Positions 28,708-37,105 of a DNA stretch of 64,000 bases are shown piece by piece. The notes under the pieces are model-generated. The model saw only the letters and a program-made list of their open reading frames with translations, had not been told where the DNA came from and did not search any database. Every line of letters begins with the position of its first letter. Position 1 is the stretch's first letter. This DNA is from Sphaerobacter thermophilus DSM 20745. GTDB taxonomy: Bacteria; Chloroflexota; Chloroflexia; Thermomicrobiales; Thermomicrobiaceae. The stretch spans positions 868,001-932,000 of the forward strand of contig NC_013523.1 in the NCBI RefSeq assembly GCF_000024985.1, in the 5' to 3' direction. Both the position numbers and the translations under genes were made by a program.

Positions 28708-28881
28708 CTACTGCGTGTAGTTGAGGGCGTCGATCCCCGTCTGGTACGCGGCCTGGAGCATCGGACCGAGCGCGATCATGGCACCGATGACCACCAGCGC
28801 GACCGTGATGAGAATCAACGAGTACTCGACGAGCCCCTGGCCGTCGTGCGCACCGGGTTGCCGCTCTGGGTTGTGATCCAT
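28708..28881 (-). CDS. Flp/Fap-type pilin
   Basis: A protein of 57 residues from ATG 28881 (MDHNPERQPGAHDGQG). The prepilin cleavage region is GQG then LVEYSLILITVALVVIGA, the N-methylated hydrophobic helix of type IVb Flp pilins. The mature part is short (about 40 residues), typical for Flp. It is the second of two pilin genes on the minus strand, with a hairpin between them (28918-28946). Assembly genes (Tad, prepilin peptidase) are not in this window. Confidence 0.82.
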   Translation of the reverse strand: MDHNPERQPGAHDGQGLVEYSLILITVALVVIGAMIALGPMLQAAYQTGIDALNYTQ

Positions 28882-28917
28882 CGGCGTCCGTCCTTCCGGT
28901 GCCTGCTCGGTACGAAA

Positions 28918-28946
28918 GCGGCCCCGTCCAGCAGGTACGGGGCCGC
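28918..28946 (-). terminator. Hairpin between the two pilin genes
   Basis: Perfect 10-base arms 28918-28927 and 28937-28946 (GCGGCCCCGT / ACGGGGCCGC) with a 9-base loop. On the minus strand TTTCG follows, so it may partly terminate or stabilise the upstream pilin mRNA and set the ratio of the two pilins. Confidence 0.6.
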
Positions 28947-28980
28947 TCACTCCGGTCAGTCAGGGAGTCTACTGCCCGCG

Positions 28981-29172
28981 CTAGGGTCGATCGCTGAGGG
29001 TGCCCGTGACATCGGTGAAGACCTCGCTGATTTTAACACCCAGCGCCTGCATGGCGACGATCGCGACGACGGAGATGAGCACCAGGATCAGGGCATACTC
29101 GACGAGGCCCTGGCCCTCGAACTGATCCTCGTCGACGTAGAGGCCGTACAGGGACTTGATGTACTCGACCAT
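28981..29172 (-). CDS. Flp/Fap-type pilin
   Basis: A protein of 63 residues. AGGAGGG lies 6 bases before ATG 29172. The leader MVEYIKSLYGLYVDEDQFEG ends at GQG, followed by LVEYALILVLISVVAIVA, so it is a second type IVb pilin, closely related in helix sequence to the pilin downstream. The long acidic leader differs. The 5' untranslated region is long, with an inverted repeat at 29297-29314. It is likely the major pilin because it has the best ribosome site. Confidence 0.88.
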   Translation of the reverse strand: MVEYIKSLYGLYVDEDQFEGQGLVEYALILVLISVVAIVAMQALGVKISEVFTDVTGTLSDRP

Positions 29173-29441: not shown

Positions 29442-30530
29442 CTACGCAAGGGGGATGACCAGCGCCAGGCGAGTTGCGGTGTCGTCGACCGGCTCGAAAT
29501 GTAGTTCGGCGCCGAGGTGGTCGAGGCGGCGCTGGACCGTCTCGTCGGTGCGCAACCGCGGCAGGGTTTGGTTGCGCTCCAGCCCCTGACCGCGGACCTC
29601 GATGCGGGCGGTCACCTGGGCGTCTTCGTAGCGGACGTCGATGTCGATCGCCTGGACGCCGTCGTCCGCCACGGCCGCGGCGATCGCCTCCTGCAGGAGG
29701 CGGTAGAGGGCGAGGCGTACCGGCTCCGCCAGGTCCCCGTCGTGGTCGGGACCGTCGATGTGGCCCTCGATCGGCCGGTTGCGACTGACCTGGGTCAGGT
29801 AGCGGCGCAGGGTCGGCACGACGCCCAGTTCGCGCAGCACCACCGGGCGCAGTTCCAGCAGCATGCGGCGGGACTCGGACAGGGCGTCCGCGGCTACGCG
29901 GCGCAGTTCTCCCAGCTCGGTGCGGGCCTGCTCCGGGTCCCGTTCCATCAGGCGTTCGCAGACTTCGGCCTCCAACAGGATGTTGGCAAGCGCCTGGGCT
30001 GGACCGTCGACCACGCGCTGGGCCAGGCGCAGACGCTCGTCCTCCTGGGCCTGGATGATGTCGGCGAAGGGGACACTCGGGAGCGCGACGGTGGCGCCGT
30101 GGCGGAGGCCACGGGTGCGCATGTCGCCCGCCCCCGACCTAGCGCCCTGGATCGTCAGGTAGGTTTCGGCCAGATCCACCAGGGTGCGCAGTCGCTCCTG
30201 ATGGTCGCGGATGGTGCGCTCCCGCTCCTGGAGTTGTTCGAGCTGGCTGCGCATCATGAGCAGGCGCAACTCCACTTCATGGGCGGCGCGGAGCATGTCG
30301 CGGATGTCGGAGCGGGCGTAGGATTCCAGGTTGGCGTCCATCTCGCGAACGCGATTCGCGAGTTGCAACTCGCGCTGGCTGAGGCGATCCACCTCGCTTG
30401 CCGTCTGGCTGACGAGGAGGGCGATCTCCTGCAACGCCTTGGAGCCCTCCTCCAGTTCCGCGCGGCACTCGGCGGCCAGGGTCTCGAGGCGGAGGGCGAA
30501 CTCTTTGGTCTGAGGTGGCGGCAACGACAT
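29442..30530 (-). CDS. DegS-like sensor kinase-type protein lacking the phosphoacceptor His
   Basis: A protein of 362 residues from ATG 30530. Residues 1-130 are a coiled coil (EELxxL heptads), as in the DegS sensor domain. The DHp helix reads QAQEDERLRLAQ-RVVDGPAQALANILL. In active HisKA_3 kinases the position of Val174 is the phosphorylated His (REIHDGPAQ). The ATPase N box is EAIAAAVADD instead of EAVTNALKH, and the G box is absent or altered (VRGQGLER). So this looks like a kinase-dead relative, perhaps a dimerising or adaptor protein. It follows the pilin genes and shares their strand. Confidence 0.8.
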   Translation of the reverse strand: MSLPPPQTKEFALRLETLAAECRAELEEGSKALQEIALLVSQTASEVDRLSQRELQLANRVREMDANLESYARSDIRDMLRAAHEVELRLLMMRSQLEQLQERERTIRDHQERLRTLVDLAETYLTIQGARSGAGDMRTRGLRHGATVALPSVPFADIIQAQEDERLRLAQRVVDGPAQALANILLEAEVCERLMERDPEQARTELGELRRVAADALSESRRMLLELRPVVLRELGVVPTLRRYLTQVSRNRPIEGHIDGPDHDGDLAEPVRLALYRLLQEAIAAAVADDGVQAIDIDVRYEDAQVTARIEVRGQGLERNQTLPRLRTDETVQRRLDHLGAELHFEPVDDTATRLALVIPLA

Positions 30531-30840: not shown

Positions 30841-32397
30841 CTAGAAACTCCCGCCCGCGCCGCCGCCACCGGCGGATGCGCCGCCGACGCTGCCGCCGGA
30901 GGATGAGGACGGCGGTGAGACGGCAGTGTGGAACCCTACCCAGTATGGGTAGAAGCCCATGGACGAGCCAGGCTGCATGGTGGCGTTGAACCAGGCAGGC
31001 TGGTAGCCGGCTTCACTGGCCTCCTTCAGGCGGTCGTCGAGCGAGTCGACCACGCCGAAGGCGACTGCGTAGGGGAGTACCTCGTCAAGGTCGAGGACGG
31101 CGGCGAGGTCGTTCCGAGCGGAGGTGATGCCTTCCTTGTAGCCGCGCCAGGCGACGGCCTCGGCCTCACCAAACTGGGTGGTGTCACGGATACTCGCGGC
31201 GAGGATGAGGGTGACGAGCGACGCGATGCCGAGGAGCAAGGGACCGATCCCTGCCAGCGGCTGTTCGGCTCCACCCGCGAGCACAGCGGCGATGACGGTG
31301 ACGAGGAACCCGACTGCAGCGGCCAGGTAGGCGGGGCGCCGTCGCGAACCCGGGTTCGGCGCGTAGAGGCCCTCGTGTTCCAGGTGCTTGCGGAGCTCCT
31401 CCCGTGTCCGGCTCCACTTCGAGCGCGAGGCGCGGAGTTCCTTGGAGGTGACGAGGCCTGCCCCGGCGCTGCTCCCCTCGAGGGCTTCCCACAGCGCGAC
31501 TTCGAACGGCGTGCGGAGAAGGGTCCGATCGAGCAGACGGACCTGTACCTTCTTCTCGCCGGCCGGCTCGATGGCGAGTGCCCCGCGATTCGCCAGGTCG
31601 ATGAGGGTGGCCTCAAGGTGCCGGTCCATGATGTGCCCGTCGACGAGGGCTCCGGCCACCGCGGGCGGCCGCGTGGATGGTGGCATCGTGGTAGGAGTGG
31701 CCGTGCCATGCGCGACCGGCCGCTCCCGGAAGCGGCGCAGGCCGATGGCGAAGACCAAGGCCGCGATCGCTGACGAGACGAGATTGACAATGCTGAAGAC
31801 TCCCGCCGTCAGATCCTCCGCGATTTGCTCGAACCGGGATGGCGGCGGAGGCGGCGGCGGGCCGTAGGTGAGCGCGTGGGCGATGGCGTCGAGCCCGGCG
31901 CCGATCCCGGCCGCCGTCTGGTCTGCCCGGAGCAGCGGAATCATCTCCTCATCGATGATGCGCTGCAGCTCCGATTGGGGCAGGTTCCCGCCATCGAAGT
32001 GCTTTTCCCCGGCGTAGATGAACACCTCGCCGCGGCGGAGATTGTCGGGCTGGAGGTTGAAGAACATGACGACGCCGTCGCGGGCACCGGGAGCGGACTG
32101 CACATCCCAGGCGTCCATCAAGGCACGGGCGTCGGCTTCCGTCTCCCGCTGGGAGGCGTCGCGGGCCTGGAGGTAGACGATGACCGGGGCACCGGCGGCT
32201 TCGACGGCGGCGGCGCGGGCCTCCAGGTCGGCGAGCTCGTCGGCGGTGAGCAGACCGGTGGTGTCGTAGACGCGTTGCCCGGGCACCGGCTCACCGTACT
32301 CGGTCGCCCCTATGGCCGGGCTGGCGAGGAGCAGCATCAGAACCACGATCATGGTTGCCCAGGTGAGGCGCCGGATAGCTCGGGCGATGGTGCGCAT
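30841..32397 (-). CDS. TPM-domain membrane protein with glycine-rich tail
   Basis: A protein of 518 residues; ATG 32397 has AAGGGGG upstream. A signal peptide (IVVLMLLLASPAIGA) is followed by a TPM phosphatase-like domain: VYDTTGLLTADELADLEARA, VYLQARDAS, GVVMFFNLQPDN and AGEKHF. A membrane helix (IVNLVSSAIAALVFAIGL) and a cytoplasmic region with LEATLIDLANRGALAIEP follow, then two further helices (LAAAVGFLVTVIAAVLAGG, IGPLLLGIASLVTLILAAS). The end is Gly/Ser-rich (GGSVGGASAGGGGAGGSF), as in YgcG-type proteins. Role unknown, perhaps membrane protein quality control. Confidence 0.78.
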   Translation of the reverse strand: MRTIARAIRRLTWATMIVVLMLLLASPAIGATEYGEPVPGQRVYDTTGLLTADELADLEARAAAVEAAGAPVIVYLQARDASQRETEADARALMDAWDVQSAPGARDGVVMFFNLQPDNLRRGEVFIYAGEKHFDGGNLPQSELQRIIDEEMIPLLRADQTAAGIGAGLDAIAHALTYGPPPPPPPSRFEQIAEDLTAGVFSIVNLVSSAIAALVFAIGLRRFRERPVAHGTATPTTMPPSTRPPAVAGALVDGHIMDRHLEATLIDLANRGALAIEPAGEKKVQVRLLDRTLLRTPFEVALWEALEGSSAGAGLVTSKELRASRSKWSRTREELRKHLEHEGLYAPNPGSRRRPAYLAAAVGFLVTVIAAVLAGGAEQPLAGIGPLLLGIASLVTLILAASIRDTTQFGEAEAVAWRGYKEGITSARNDLAAVLDLDEVLPYAVAFGVVDSLDDRLKEASEAGYQPAWFNATMQPGSSMGFYPYWVGFHTAVSPPSSSSGGSVGGASAGGGGAGGSF

Positions 32398-32651
32398 AAG
32401 GACCCCCTTGTCCCTAAGAGCCGGTCCACGGGACCGTGAAAGGTCTACGTAAAGCATAGGCGGACACGATGGGAAGGGTCTAGATCAATGGGACAGGATG
32501 GGTGCGCCCGAAGGGACAGTGCAAGGGGTCGGCGGCTCGTCGCGGTTGACGAGATTCGTGGCGCGCGGCCCTGGCGCGTCGACGCATCCTCCAGGCTGGT
32601 GCAACAGCCACGGCTGTATTCGCCGCGTGGCCCGTCGGCACGCGGACTTCC

Positions 32652-32832: not shown

Positions 32833-34227
32833 GTGAACTCGGACGAAACTGGTAGAGCGCAGTCACAAGTTGCCGCGGTCATCCTCGCCGCGGGCTTGGG
32901 TACGCGCATGAAGTCGCGTATCCCGAAGGAGCTGCAGCCCCTCGCCGGGCGCCCCGTGATCGACTACGTCCTCCGTGCGATCCAACCCCTCGCTCCCTTG
33001 CAGACGATCGTGGTGTTGAGTCCCGCCAAGGCGGGGCTGGCCGAACGCCTGCCGCCTGAGTGCGAGGTGGCCTGGCAACACGAGCCGCTGGGTACCGGCC
33101 ACGCCGCGGCGCAGGCGCTGCCGCTGCTGCGTCCGGAGGTCCGCCAGGTGGTGATCCTCTTCGGCGATCATCCCCTTCTCTCGCCAGACACGGTGAAGGA
33201 ACTCGTCGATACCGCCGTCCAAACGCGTGCGCTCGTGACGCTGCTCACCGCGCTGGTGGATGACCCGGCGGGCTACGGCCGACTGCGGCGCGAGGGAGGC
33301 CGCATCGTGGGGGTGATCGAGGCCAAGGAGGACGACAGCCGTTACGACGGCCCGGTCGAGATCAACAGCGGCATCTCCTGCTACCGGCGCGACTGGCTCG
33401 AGGAAGCGCTGCCCCAGGTGCCGCGGAGTGCGGTGGGGGAATACTACCTGACGTCGCTCGTGGCGATGGCCGCGAGTGCATCCGAGCCGGACCCACCGGT
33501 TGTCTCAGTCGTCGCATCCCCAGACGTCGCACACGGCGTGAATGACCGTGTAGAGCTGGCGGCGGCCGAGGCGATCATCCGGCGGCGGATCAATGAGCGG
33601 TTGATGCGTGCCGGAGTGGCGATCGTCGATCCGGCGACCACCTTCATCGACGACACCGTGGAGATTGCACCAGACGCGCGGATCGAGCCGTTCACGACGA
33701 TCAGCGGTGCTTCCGTGATCGGTGAGGGAGCGCGCATCGGCCCGCAGGCCATCCTCCGCGACGCTCGGGTGGGGCCGGAGAGCGAGGTGCTGGCCTCGGT
33801 GATCGAGGAGTCGGAGATCGGGGCGCGGGTCCATGTCGGGCCCTTCACCCACCTGCGGCCTGGCACGCGGGTGGCGGATGATGTCCACATCGGTAACTAC
33901 GTGGAGATGAAGAACACTGTGGTCGGCTCCGGGACGCACGTCGGACATGTCTCCTACCTGGGCGACGCCGAACTCGGGCGAGATGTGAACATCGGTGCGG
34001 GGACGATCACGGCGAACTACGACGGACGAGACAAGCACCGAACGGTGATCGGGGACAGCGCCTTCATCGGGGTGGATACGATGCTGCGGGCGCCGGTTAC
34101 GGTGGGTCCCGGGGCGCGGACCGGAGCGGGGGCTGTGGTGCTCCGGGATGTCGCGCCTGGGGAGACGGTGGCAGGTGTTCCGGCGCGGCCGCTACCGCGC
34201 CGGACACAGGACGCGGGGGAGAGGTAG
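32833..34227 (+). CDS. glmU: Bifunctional GlmU: glucosamine-1-phosphate acetyltransferase / UDP-GlcNAc pyrophosphorylase
   Basis: A protein of 464 residues from GTG 32833. The uridylyltransferase domain starts with AAVILAAGLGTRMKSRIPKE and binds UTP; EPLGTGHAAAQALP and VLFGDHPLL are further motifs. The C-terminal half is a left-handed beta helix of hexapeptide repeats with GPFTHLRPGTRV, VEMKNT and HVSYLGDAELG, NIGAGTITANYDG. It makes UDP-GlcNAc for peptidoglycan. It lies just after tRNA-Gln and 6 bases before prs, so both are probably in one operon. Confidence 0.96.
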   Translation: MNSDETGRAQSQVAAVILAAGLGTRMKSRIPKELQPLAGRPVIDYVLRAIQPLAPLQTIVVLSPAKAGLAERLPPECEVAWQHEPLGTGHAAAQALPLLRPEVRQVVILFGDHPLLSPDTVKELVDTAVQTRALVTLLTALVDDPAGYGRLRREGGRIVGVIEAKEDDSRYDGPVEINSGISCYRRDWLEEALPQVPRSAVGEYYLTSLVAMAASASEPDPPVVSVVASPDVAHGVNDRVELAAAEAIIRRRINERLMRAGVAIVDPATTFIDDTVEIAPDARIEPFTTISGASVIGEGARIGPQAILRDARVGPESEVLASVIEESEIGARVHVGPFTHLRPGTRVADDVHIGNYVEMKNTVVGSGTHVGHVSYLGDAELGRDVNIGAGTITANYDGRDKHRTVIGDSAFIGVDTMLRAPVTVGPGARTGAGAVVLRDVAPGETVAGVPARPLPRRTQDAGER

Positions 34228-34233
34228 ACAGGG

Positions 34234-35172
34234 ATGGACGGCCGGCTGCAGGTTTTCGCCGGGAATTCCAGCCCAGCGCTTGCAAACCGGATCGTGAGCG
34301 AGCTTGAGGCGCCGCTGGGGCGGGCGATCGTTGGGGCGTGGAAAGACGGCGAGACGCGGGTCAAGCTGGAGGAGAACGTCCGCGGCTCGGATGTCTTCGT
34401 CATCCAGACGATGAGCCGGCCGGTAAACCAGAACTTGATGGAGTTGCTGGTCATCCTGGACGCGCTGCGGCGTGCCTCGGCCGCGCGGATCACGGCCGTG
34501 ATCCCGTACTACGCCTATGCGCGGCAGGAAAAGAAGACGTCCGGGCGTGAGCCGATCAGTGCCAAGCTGGTCGCCAACCTGCTGGTGACAGCCGGCGCGG
34601 ACCGGATCCTGACCATGGACCTGCACTCCCCGGCGATCGAAGGCTTTTTCGACATCCAGGTCGATCACCTTCGCGCAACGCCGATCCTGGCGGCGCACTT
34701 CCGGCGGCTCGGGCTGGACGATCTGGTCGTAGTGAGCCCGGATTCGGGCAGCGTGGCCCGCGCCGAAGAGTTCCGGCGGCGCACAGGTGGGTCGCTGGCC
34801 ATCATCTCGAAGCAGCGGCCAGGGCCGGAGCGGGCCGAGGTGCTGGAGATGGTCGGCGACGTCGAGGGCCGCCACGCGGTTATCGTCGACGATATGATCT
34901 CCTCCGGTTGGACGCTGGTGAAGGCTGCCGAGGCGCTCCTGGCGCGCGGCGCGCGGAGCGTGCGTGCGGCGGCCGTGCACGGGGTCTTCGCCGGTGAGGC
35001 GATGCGGCTGATCCAGGAGTCACCGATCGAGAAGGTCTTTGTCACTGACACACTACCGTTACCGGAAGGGGTGTCGTCCGACAAGGTTGAGGTTCTGACC
35101 GTAGCGCCGTTGATCGCCGAGGCGATCATGCGGATCCATAAGGACCTCAGCATCAGCGCGCTGTTCACCTAG
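34234..35172 (+). CDS. prs: Ribose-phosphate pyrophosphokinase
   Basis: It makes PRPP from ribose 5-phosphate and ATP for nucleotide, His and Trp synthesis, 312 residues. The N-terminal loop holds AGNSSPALANRIVSEL. ILDALRRASAARITAVIPYYAYARQ is the catalytic region, and HSPAIEGFFDI, DSGSVARAEEF and the PRPP-binding VIVDDMISSGWTL are complete. It starts 7 bases after glmU. A palindromic hairpin (35210-35230) lies between it and the next gene. Confidence 0.96.
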   Translation: MDGRLQVFAGNSSPALANRIVSELEAPLGRAIVGAWKDGETRVKLEENVRGSDVFVIQTMSRPVNQNLMELLVILDALRRASAARITAVIPYYAYARQEKKTSGREPISAKLVANLLVTAGADRILTMDLHSPAIEGFFDIQVDHLRATPILAAHFRRLGLDDLVVVSPDSGSVARAEEFRRRTGGSLAIISKQRPGPERAEVLEMVGDVEGRHAVIVDDMISSGWTLVKAAEALLARGARSVRAAAVHGVFAGEAMRLIQESPIEKVFVTDTLPLPEGVSSDKVEVLTVAPLIAEAIMRIHKDLSISALFT

Positions 35173-35209
35173 AGCGCGCCGGGCGACACCCTGCGGGGCA
35201 ACCCCGCCA

Positions 35210-35230
35210 CCGATCGGGCAGACCGATCGG
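35210..35230. repeat. Hairpin between prs and the CBS-domain gene
   Basis: Two identical self-complementary CCGATCGG boxes (35210-35217 and 35223-35230), separated by 5 bases, can pair. Further GGAGCCC/GGGCTCC complementarity lies just downstream. Possible terminator or attenuator. Confidence 0.4.
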
Positions 35231-35292
35231 AGCCCGGAGCCCGGAGAGCTATGGGGGCTCCGGCTGGAGGGGATCCCAGGAGTTGAGGGGGT

Positions 35293-36567
35293 TTGAGTAC
35301 CGATAGTAGTTGGATAGAGTTAGCCGTCGCGGCTGTGGCGCTCCTGGTGCTAACCCTGGCTGCCTTCGTTGAAGCAAGCCTCGCGGCGGTGAATCGCGTC
35401 ACGCTCCGCGAGATGATCGAGGAGCGAACCAGTCCCCACCGCGTCCAGTCCTTCATCGAGCATCCCCAGTTGATCCGCTCGACGATGATCCTTGTCCAGT
35501 TGCTCGCGGCGCTCGTCGCCGGGGCGATGCTCACGCGTGTCTTCACCCGCGAGTTCCCCAGCTACGGCCTGTTGCTGGCGCTCGTCGTCGGGACGATCGC
35601 CCTGGTGGTCGCCGGTCGGGTGCTGCCGGGCGCGCTGACCGCCAGTGAGCAGCGGGAAGAGTCGCGCCGCCTGAACCGGCTCAGCGCGGTGCTCGCGGGT
35701 GCGGTTTGGCCGCTGACGACGGTAGCCGACCTCATTATCCGCCTGGTCCGGCGTGGTGCGCCGGGCGAGGCCGGCAACGGCGAGGACGCCGGCGAGGCGC
35801 ACGAGGGTGGGAACGGCGACCTGGACATCGAAGAGGACGAGCAGGAGATGATCAGCGGGGTGCTCGGCCTCGAGGAGGCGACGGTCCGCGAGATCATGGT
35901 TCCCCGGCTCGACATCGTGGCGGCGCCGCAGGACATGTCGATCTCGGAGGTGGTGGATCTGGCTCGCTCGGCCGGCCACTCACGTATCCCGGTCTACCGC
36001 GACTCAATCGACTCGATCGTCGGCGTGATCTACGCCAAGGACCTGCTCCGGTTCGTGAACGAGCAGGCGACCGGGGTCAAGCTGCTCGACCTGCTGCGCC
36101 CGGCGTACTTCGTGCCGGAGTCGAAGCATGTGGATGAGCTGCTGCGCGACATGCGGCAGGCGAAGGTGCACATCGCCATCGTCGTCGACGAGTACGGTGG
36201 GACGGCCGGCCTGGTGACGATCGAGGACATCCTTGAGGAGATCGTCGGCGAGATTCAGGACGAGTACGACCGCGAGACACCGCTGATCGAGCGGCTGGGG
36301 GCCGAAGAGGTGATCGTCGACGGCAGGATCGCGGTGGACGAGATCGCCGACATCTTTGAGACCGAGTTCGCCGAAGGGGAGACCGGCACGATCGGCGGGT
36401 TCGTGCAGAAGCGGCTTGGCCGGATCCCGAAGGCCGGGGAATCATTGCGAGCCGATGGCCTGCTCATCGAGGTGCAGGCCGTGGAGCACCACCGGATTCG
36501 CAAGCTCCGGGTGGTGCGCGTGCGTGAGGACGGGACCGCGGTGAGCGAAGAAGCCGGGGCAGCCTGA
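35293..36567 (+). CDS. CNNM/CorC-type membrane protein with CBS pair
   Basis: A protein of 424 residues from TTG 35293 (AGGAG about 10 bases upstream). The N-terminal DUF21 membrane domain has about four helices (ELAVAAVALLVLTLAAFVEA and MILVQLLAALVAGAML). Then the CBS pair, with TVREIMVPRLDIVAAPQDMS, SRIPVYRDSIDSIVGVIYAKDLL and IAIVVDEYGGTAGLVTIEDILEE, and a CorC_HlyC FAD-like domain (VDGRIAVDEIADIFE to IGGFVQKRLGRIPKAGE). Such proteins take part in Mg/Co ion transport or efflux. It overlaps neither neighbour but sits one base before the biotin ligase gene. Confidence 0.92.
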   Translation: MSTDSSWIELAVAAVALLVLTLAAFVEASLAAVNRVTLREMIEERTSPHRVQSFIEHPQLIRSTMILVQLLAALVAGAMLTRVFTREFPSYGLLLALVVGTIALVVAGRVLPGALTASEQREESRRLNRLSAVLAGAVWPLTTVADLIIRLVRRGAPGEAGNGEDAGEAHEGGNGDLDIEEDEQEMISGVLGLEEATVREIMVPRLDIVAAPQDMSISEVVDLARSAGHSRIPVYRDSIDSIVGVIYAKDLLRFVNEQATGVKLLDLLRPAYFVPESKHVDELLRDMRQAKVHIAIVVDEYGGTAGLVTIEDILEEIVGEIQDEYDRETPLIERLGAEEVIVDGRIAVDEIADIFETEFAEGETGTIGGFVQKRLGRIPKAGESLRADGLLIEVQAVEHHRIRKLRVVRVREDGTAVSEEAGAA

Positions 36568-36568
36568 C

Positions 36569-37105
36569 GTGAAGTGGCGCATCGAGCGACGGAACTCGGT
36601 CACCTCAACGATGGACGTGGCTGCGGATCTTGCAGGACGAGGCGCCCCGGCTGGAACGGTCGTCGTCGCTGACGAGCAGACGGCCGGTCGCGGCCGCCTC
36701 GGCCGGGTCTGGCTGGCGCCAGCCGGCACCTGCCTGCTCTTCACCGCGCTCTTCCGCCCGCCCCTCGCCGTGGCCCAGTCACCTACGCTGCTTCGGGACA
36801 TCGGCGAGCGCGTGGCGGCGGCCGTCGCGGAGACGACCGGTGTCCAGCCCACCATCAAGGAGCCGAACGACCTCCTCATCGACGGCAGGAAGGTCGCCGG
36901 GATCCTGGTCCAGACCAGCATCCGTGGTGACCACCTCGACTACCTTCTGGTCGGCATCGGACTGAACGTCAACCTCCCTGAGGACCTCCTCCCGGTCCCG
37001 ACTGCCACCAGTCTTCTCATTGCCACCGGACGTGAACATGACCGCGACGCGCTGCTACACGCGATCCTGCGACGCCTGGAAGAGGTGCCGGGGCTGGCAG
37101 GGTAA
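36569..37105 (+). CDS. Biotin-[acetyl-CoA-carboxylase] ligase, short form
   Basis: A protein of 178 residues from GTG 36569, overlapping the upstream stop region. The biotin protein ligase core is present: TSTMDVAADLA, VVVADEQTAGRGRLGRVWL (biotin/AMP loop, GRGRxGR), and IGLNVNLPEDLLP. The usual KWPND motif appears as KEPNDLLIDGRKVAG: Trp is Glu. The protein lacks the C-terminal SH3-like domain and any DNA-binding domain, so it is not a BirA repressor. It presumably biotinylates the AccB at 6826. Called birA-like only in function. Confidence 0.82.
   Translation: MKWRIERRNSVTSTMDVAADLAGRGAPAGTVVVADEQTAGRGRLGRVWLAPAGTCLLFTALFRPPLAVAQSPTLLRDIGERVAAAVAETTGVQPTIKEPNDLLIDGRKVAGILVQTSIRGDHLDYLLVGIGLNVNLPEDLLPVPTATSLLIATGREHDRDALLHAILRRLEEVPGLAG

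Follow-up and report, generated by a model that had tools for sequence, protein, structure and literature searches.

Pseudo-histidine-kinases are few and have mostly been studied one at a time. The described systems closest to the protein reported here are DegS and DesK of Bacillus, DivL of Caulobacter, and the ChpT phosphotransferases; ChpT performs phosphotransfer through a His of its own. In DivL, Tyr takes the place of the phospho-acceptor His and the other kinase motifs are kept, and the sensors are PAS domains. The protein is conserved, shows neither kinase nor phosphatase activity, and acts by binding a response regulator (PMC4211667). The H188V variant of DesK has been described as phosphatase-trapped, and the phosphatase-competent DesK complex holds a nucleotide in its CA domain (PMC5231405). 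For NarX, also a HisKA_3 kinase, phosphatase activity requires the DxxxQ motif (cited in PMC3510030).

The window analyzed here is a stretch of 64,000 nucleotides from Sphaerobacter thermophilus DSM 20745, whose genome comprises 3,993,764 bases in two contigs. It encodes a DegS-like protein next to Flp pilin genes, with the following features.

28708 to 28950, minus strand: second Flp-like pilin (local Flp HMM; no Pfam match)
28981 to 29172, minus strand: flp pilin 1 (Pfam Flp_Fap), downstream of the pseudokinase
29442 to 30530, minus strand: DegS2-family pseudo-histidine-kinase, 362 amino acids, ATG start
30156 to 30488, minus strand: N-terminal DegS-type helical hairpin/coiled coil, residues 15-125 (conservation and predicted structure)
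29835 to 30059, minus strand: DHp domain, HisKA_3, residues 158-232 (Pfam and predicted structure)
30009 to 30011, minus strand: GTC codon of Val174, at the phospho-acceptor His position (DesK His188)
29994 to 30008, minus strand: D175-G-P-A-Q179, remnant of the HisKA_3 phosphatase motif DxxxQ
29445 to 29783, minus strand: degenerate CA (HATPase-like) domain, residues 250-362; N, G1, G2, and G3 boxes lost, fold predicted

The product of 29442-30530 matched HisKA_3 (E 5.9e-12, above the cut-off) and DegS (E 4e-8) in Pfam, and no HATPase domain was returned for it even at E values up to 1. A longer ORF with a GTG start, reaching 30722, was rejected as the gene because close relatives share the start MxLPPPQTKEF of the 362-residue form.

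An earlier sequence-only reading of this locus had claimed that Val replaces the phospho-acceptor His, and our structural alignment agreed: Val174 superposes on DesK His188 and Gln179 on Gln193, with a constant offset of 14, within a DHp motif that reads RLAQRVVDGPAQALAN (also given as RVVDGPAQ). The N box, said to lack its Asn, has indeed changed from NN to AA (LLQEAIAAAVADDG), and the G boxes, said to be unusual, depart further than that, with G1 changed from DDGSG to VRGQG, G3 from GRGTR to DDTATR, and the G2 segment deleted; the lid segment is also missing or altered. The protein thus has the DHp domain of a catalytic HisKA_3/DegS-type kinase and has neither the phospho-acceptor His nor the ATP boxes, and it probably does not bind ATP. 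The AlphaFold2 model (mean pLDDT 82.7) contains a confident helical hairpin, in keeping with the claim that the long coiled coil is kept, along with confident DHp helices and a CA-like fold, and its pTM of 0.48 makes the placement of the domains unsure.

The best solved Foldseek matches were the DesKC-H188V structures (3ehh/3ehj) of the Bacillus subtilis kinase, which share its DHp/CA architecture and its His-to-Val substitution. DesK itself, however, is membrane bound and naturally has the His and an ATP site, whereas the window protein has lost both and carries a DegS-type coiled-coil sensor. The N-terminal sensor region and the HisKA_3 DHp domain are shared with Bacillus DegS (Pfam PF05384 plus HisKA_3), but the phospho-acceptor His, the ATP motifs, and an adjacent DegU-type regulator are not. 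The likeness to DivL, by analogy only, lies in a conserved protein whose phospho-acceptor His has been replaced. ChpT (PDB 4fpp, 4fmt) has a DHp and a CA-like domain in common with the window protein (fold match Z about 12), which differs in having no His; ChpT resembles more closely the His-bearing DegS2 proteins of families f33 and f43 described below.

Two trees, one built from all columns and one without the CA columns, both resolved two families, DegS1 and DegS2, with the window protein in DegS2. SH-aLRT support for the Thermomicrobiales clade was 100% in the first tree and 99% in the second; in the second, where a few long-branched Anaerolineae DegS1 shift, the clade was sister to Chloroflexia DegS2 (95%). 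A flp pilin gene lies at most 2.5 kb downstream of DegS2 at 62 of the 108 loci with enough sequence, across many family groups, with cpaE and tadA further on at many of the loci; in several lineages the gene order is DegS1, LuxR-type response regulator, DegS2, flp, cpaE, tadA. Judged by this comparison of loci, DegS1-response regulator-DegS2-flp-cpaE/tadA is the ancestral Chloroflexota operon. The pilin genes that the sequence-only reading had noticed beside the kinase are part of a phylum-wide linkage, and the window locus, with flp downstream on the same strand, has the arrangement expected of a DegS2 member. Phylogeny and gene order together identify the window protein as the Thermomicrobiales DegS2, a Flp/Tad-locus kinase turned pseudokinase.

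The window flp is the only Pfam Flp_Fap match in the genome. A Tad cluster lies at C1:587-593 kb, with TadA recognized by Pfam and CpaB, CpaE, TadB, and TadC assigned by reading the sequences and by similarity to other loci. Within family f1, the protein occurs in 11/12 genomes with Flp_Fap and 3/9 without (Fisher p 0.016, shared ancestry ignored), and three g4 genomes (G114, G116, G117) have the DegS2 gene with no adjoining flp. The CpaE-like protein encoded in the Tad cluster at L259:7436-8701 carries an N-terminal receiver domain.

In Thermomicrobiales, the DegS1-response regulator pair sits away from DegS2, and its regulator belongs to the same family as the one beside DegS2 elsewhere (97% support). 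Most relatives have an intact DegS1 kinase with its regulator elsewhere in the genome: the pair was found in 14/17 Thermomicrobiales genomes with the DegS2 pseudokinase, and DegS1 in 9/44 without it, a Fisher test that ignores shared ancestry. The partner kinase with an intact His that the sequence-only reading proposed to look for is thus present in relatives, but in the window genome DegS1 (L088, G000:C1:1778935-1779948, minus strand, outside the window), which adjoins an intact DegU-like regulator, carries an in-frame TAG just before the DHp domain where the congener G112 has CAG; the TAG may be real or a sequencing error. In G110 (98% complete), the pseudokinase is present and no DegS1 or response regulator orthologue was found.

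Orthologues of the window protein are widespread among the 158 genomes of the class; none was found in the close relatives G108, G109, G111, and G123, and many relatives' assemblies are fragmented and partly incomplete. The His is absent from all 15 orthologues of f1/f3 (Thermomicrobiales, a heat-loving lineage), among which V, E, L, A, T, or I occupies the site, and is kept in 30/30 Chloroflexia orthologues examined. Across Chloroflexota outside this clade, most orthologues retain both the His and the ATP site. A sequencing error or frameshift was rejected: Val is also found in two congeners, G112 (94% identity) and G113 (78-79%), and no member of the clade has the His; in G104, where the gene is split over two contigs, the residue is Thr. 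The Val itself, whose conservation in Thermomicrobia had been left for checking, proved not to be conserved, and we rejected it as a functional residue. Homologues with an intact His, which had been named as possible evidence of a recent single loss, are many, but both trees rejected such a loss in favor of an old, clade-wide one. At the base of the clade, the DegS2 of G137 (f5; L057) has the His and already lacks the ATP motifs, which puts loss of the ATP site ahead of loss of the His. In g5 (L059-L062), Glu occupies this site (LEHELAQ), a change also present in the DesK H188E structures.

The pseudokinase gene is maintained as a protein under purifying selection. The ORF is full length in every member whose contig is complete at the locus, dN/dS between close pairs of orthologues is 0.07-0.25, and a comparison of the window genome with G112 shows 29 synonymous changes and no nonsynonymous change across the 113 CA codons. 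Mean pairwise identity in the His-less clade is 0.64 for the coiled coil, 0.52 for the DHp domain, and 0.44 for the CA domain, compared to 0.50, 0.76, and 0.61, respectively, in active orthologues. By these identities, constraint now falls mainly on the N-terminal coiled coil where it once fell on the DHp/CA core, which inverts the ranking of the parts seen in active orthologues. Within the DHp core, Gln179, Glu189, Leu186, Arg221, and Pro229 are invariant in the His-less clade, and Arg187 of active orthologues is mostly Glu. The (D/E)xxxQ motif of HisKA_3 response-regulator phosphatases is present in the window protein as D175/Q179; its Gln is invariant in the 15 f1/f3 orthologues and its acidic residue is D or E in 11/15, being His in g5.

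The sequence-only reading suggested a pseudokinase scaffold or adaptor. The conserved pseudokinase stands, and the scaffold or adaptor role is still an inference. The reading we tentatively prefer, well short of assurance, is that the protein is a dimeric, kinase-dead regulator that docks the response regulator of the DegS1 pair and lowers or gates its phosphorylation and hence pilus expression. The coiled coil would sense a cytoplasmic or partner signal, and the DHp four-helix bundle, with its (D/E)xxxQ kept and its His gone, would dock a NarL/DegU-type regulator phosphorylated by DegS1 or another kinase; the regulator would then be dephosphorylated or sequestered by DegS2, so that flp expression would be lowered or gated. 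We favor a regulator-docking role because Gln179 is invariant and the acidic residue mostly kept where the His is lost, because NarX and DesK H188V offer precedents, and because the best fold match is DesKC-H188V. The purifying selection, the adjacency of flp with cpaE/tadA further on, the shared response regulator family, and the co-occurrence of the protein with the DegS1 pair and, within f1, with Flp_Fap also count in its favor. Several findings speak against it, namely, that the DHp domain is less conserved than in active orthologues, that Arg187 is mostly Glu and His stands at the acidic position in g5, that the nucleotide held by the DesK CA domain is probably not bindable by the window protein, and that DegS1 has an in-frame stop in the window genome and is missing, along with its regulator, from G110. 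Given that DivL binds a response regulator without phosphatase activity, such a role can do without the phosphatase step.

It is possible, though we think it unlikely, that DegS2 instead joins DegS1 in mixed dimers or larger assemblies, its coiled coil feeding a second signal to the active kinase much as DivL modulates CckA. Consistent with this, the coiled coil is the best-conserved part in the His-less clade, and DegS1 and DegS2 flank one response regulator gene in f32, f33, f43, f48, f52, f57, and some Anaerolineae. The losses in the two families also differ and are partly reciprocal. The DegS2 proteins of f33 (L172-L180) and f57/f43 (L142, L161, L164-L171) keep the His and have lost the ATP motifs beside an intact DegS1, and are possibly phosphotransfer proteins; Anaerolineae-type DegS1 proteins (L042, L043, L045, L046) have Gln for His with intact N and G boxes beside an intact DegS2; in L139, DegS2 has an intact ATP site and Gln in place of the His; and both His and ATP site are absent from L186. 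To account for these states on the tree without CA columns, the ATP site must have changed at least 7 times and the His at least 4 times. The pattern suggests a DegS1-DegS2 partnership, though not a strict rule: the proposal that DegS2 can lose its ATP site only where DegS1 is intact was not upheld, given that G362 (f80, 99% complete) has a DegS2 without an N box and no evident DegS1. This genome also weighs against a mixed complex, as do the DegS1 stop codon in the window genome, the missing DegS1 of G110, and the Chloroflexia DegS2 proteins, which are intact even though the same genomes hold DegS1-like matches (matches not placed on the tree). More broadly, DegS1 and DegS2 might constitute a two-kinase, one-regulator hetero-oligomer of the Flp/Tad operon in which either partner can lose catalytic parts, with the fully non-catalytic DegS2 of Thermomicrobiales as the end state; we regard this as doubtful.

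An unlikelier role lies outside two-component signaling, where a coiled-coil dimer would scaffold or localize Tad/Flp assembly proteins and the DHp and CA domains would be merely folded remnants. The inverted order of conservation and the partial co-loss with flp within f1 are consistent with such an adaptor; the invariant DHp core residues and the persistence of the gene in g4 without an adjoining flp speak against it. That the gene is a decaying kinase relic with no present function, for which the loss of every catalytic motif and the missing orthologues in G108, G109, G111, and G123 could be cited, is very improbable in light of the full-length ORFs, the dN/dS values, and the unchanged CA codons. 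Least credible is an active enzyme that uses another phosphorylated residue or another mode of nucleotide use, since all four ATP boxes (N, G1, G2, G3) and the lid segment are missing or altered and the site offers no other conserved His, even though the CA domain is also under purifying selection.

Pseudo-histidine-kinases are already known from DivL; what is new here is the DegS2 family, its linkage to the pilus, and the way in which the DegS1/DegS2 pair has repeatedly lost catalytic parts, not always the same ones. Nothing relevant on a described DegS-like pseudokinase, or on a link between DegS and Flp, turned up in the literature searched, though this does not prove that none exists. One orthologous family at one pilus locus, across a whole phylum, includes intact, ATP-site-less, His-less, and doubly lacking forms, and DegS2 is thus a natural series in which to test the histidine kinase functions that remain without catalysis, as well as a candidate regulator of Flp/Tad pili in Chloroflexota.

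Upstream of the pseudokinase, 30841-32457 (minus strand) encodes a TPM-domain/DUF2207 membrane protein; among the loci compared, its cluster lies beside DegS2 only in Sphaerobacter and genus g2. Families across Thermomicrobiales retain, next to DegS2, the upstream genes found here at 32833-37105, which by sequence reading are glmU, prs, a gene for a CBS/CorC-type membrane protein, and birA.
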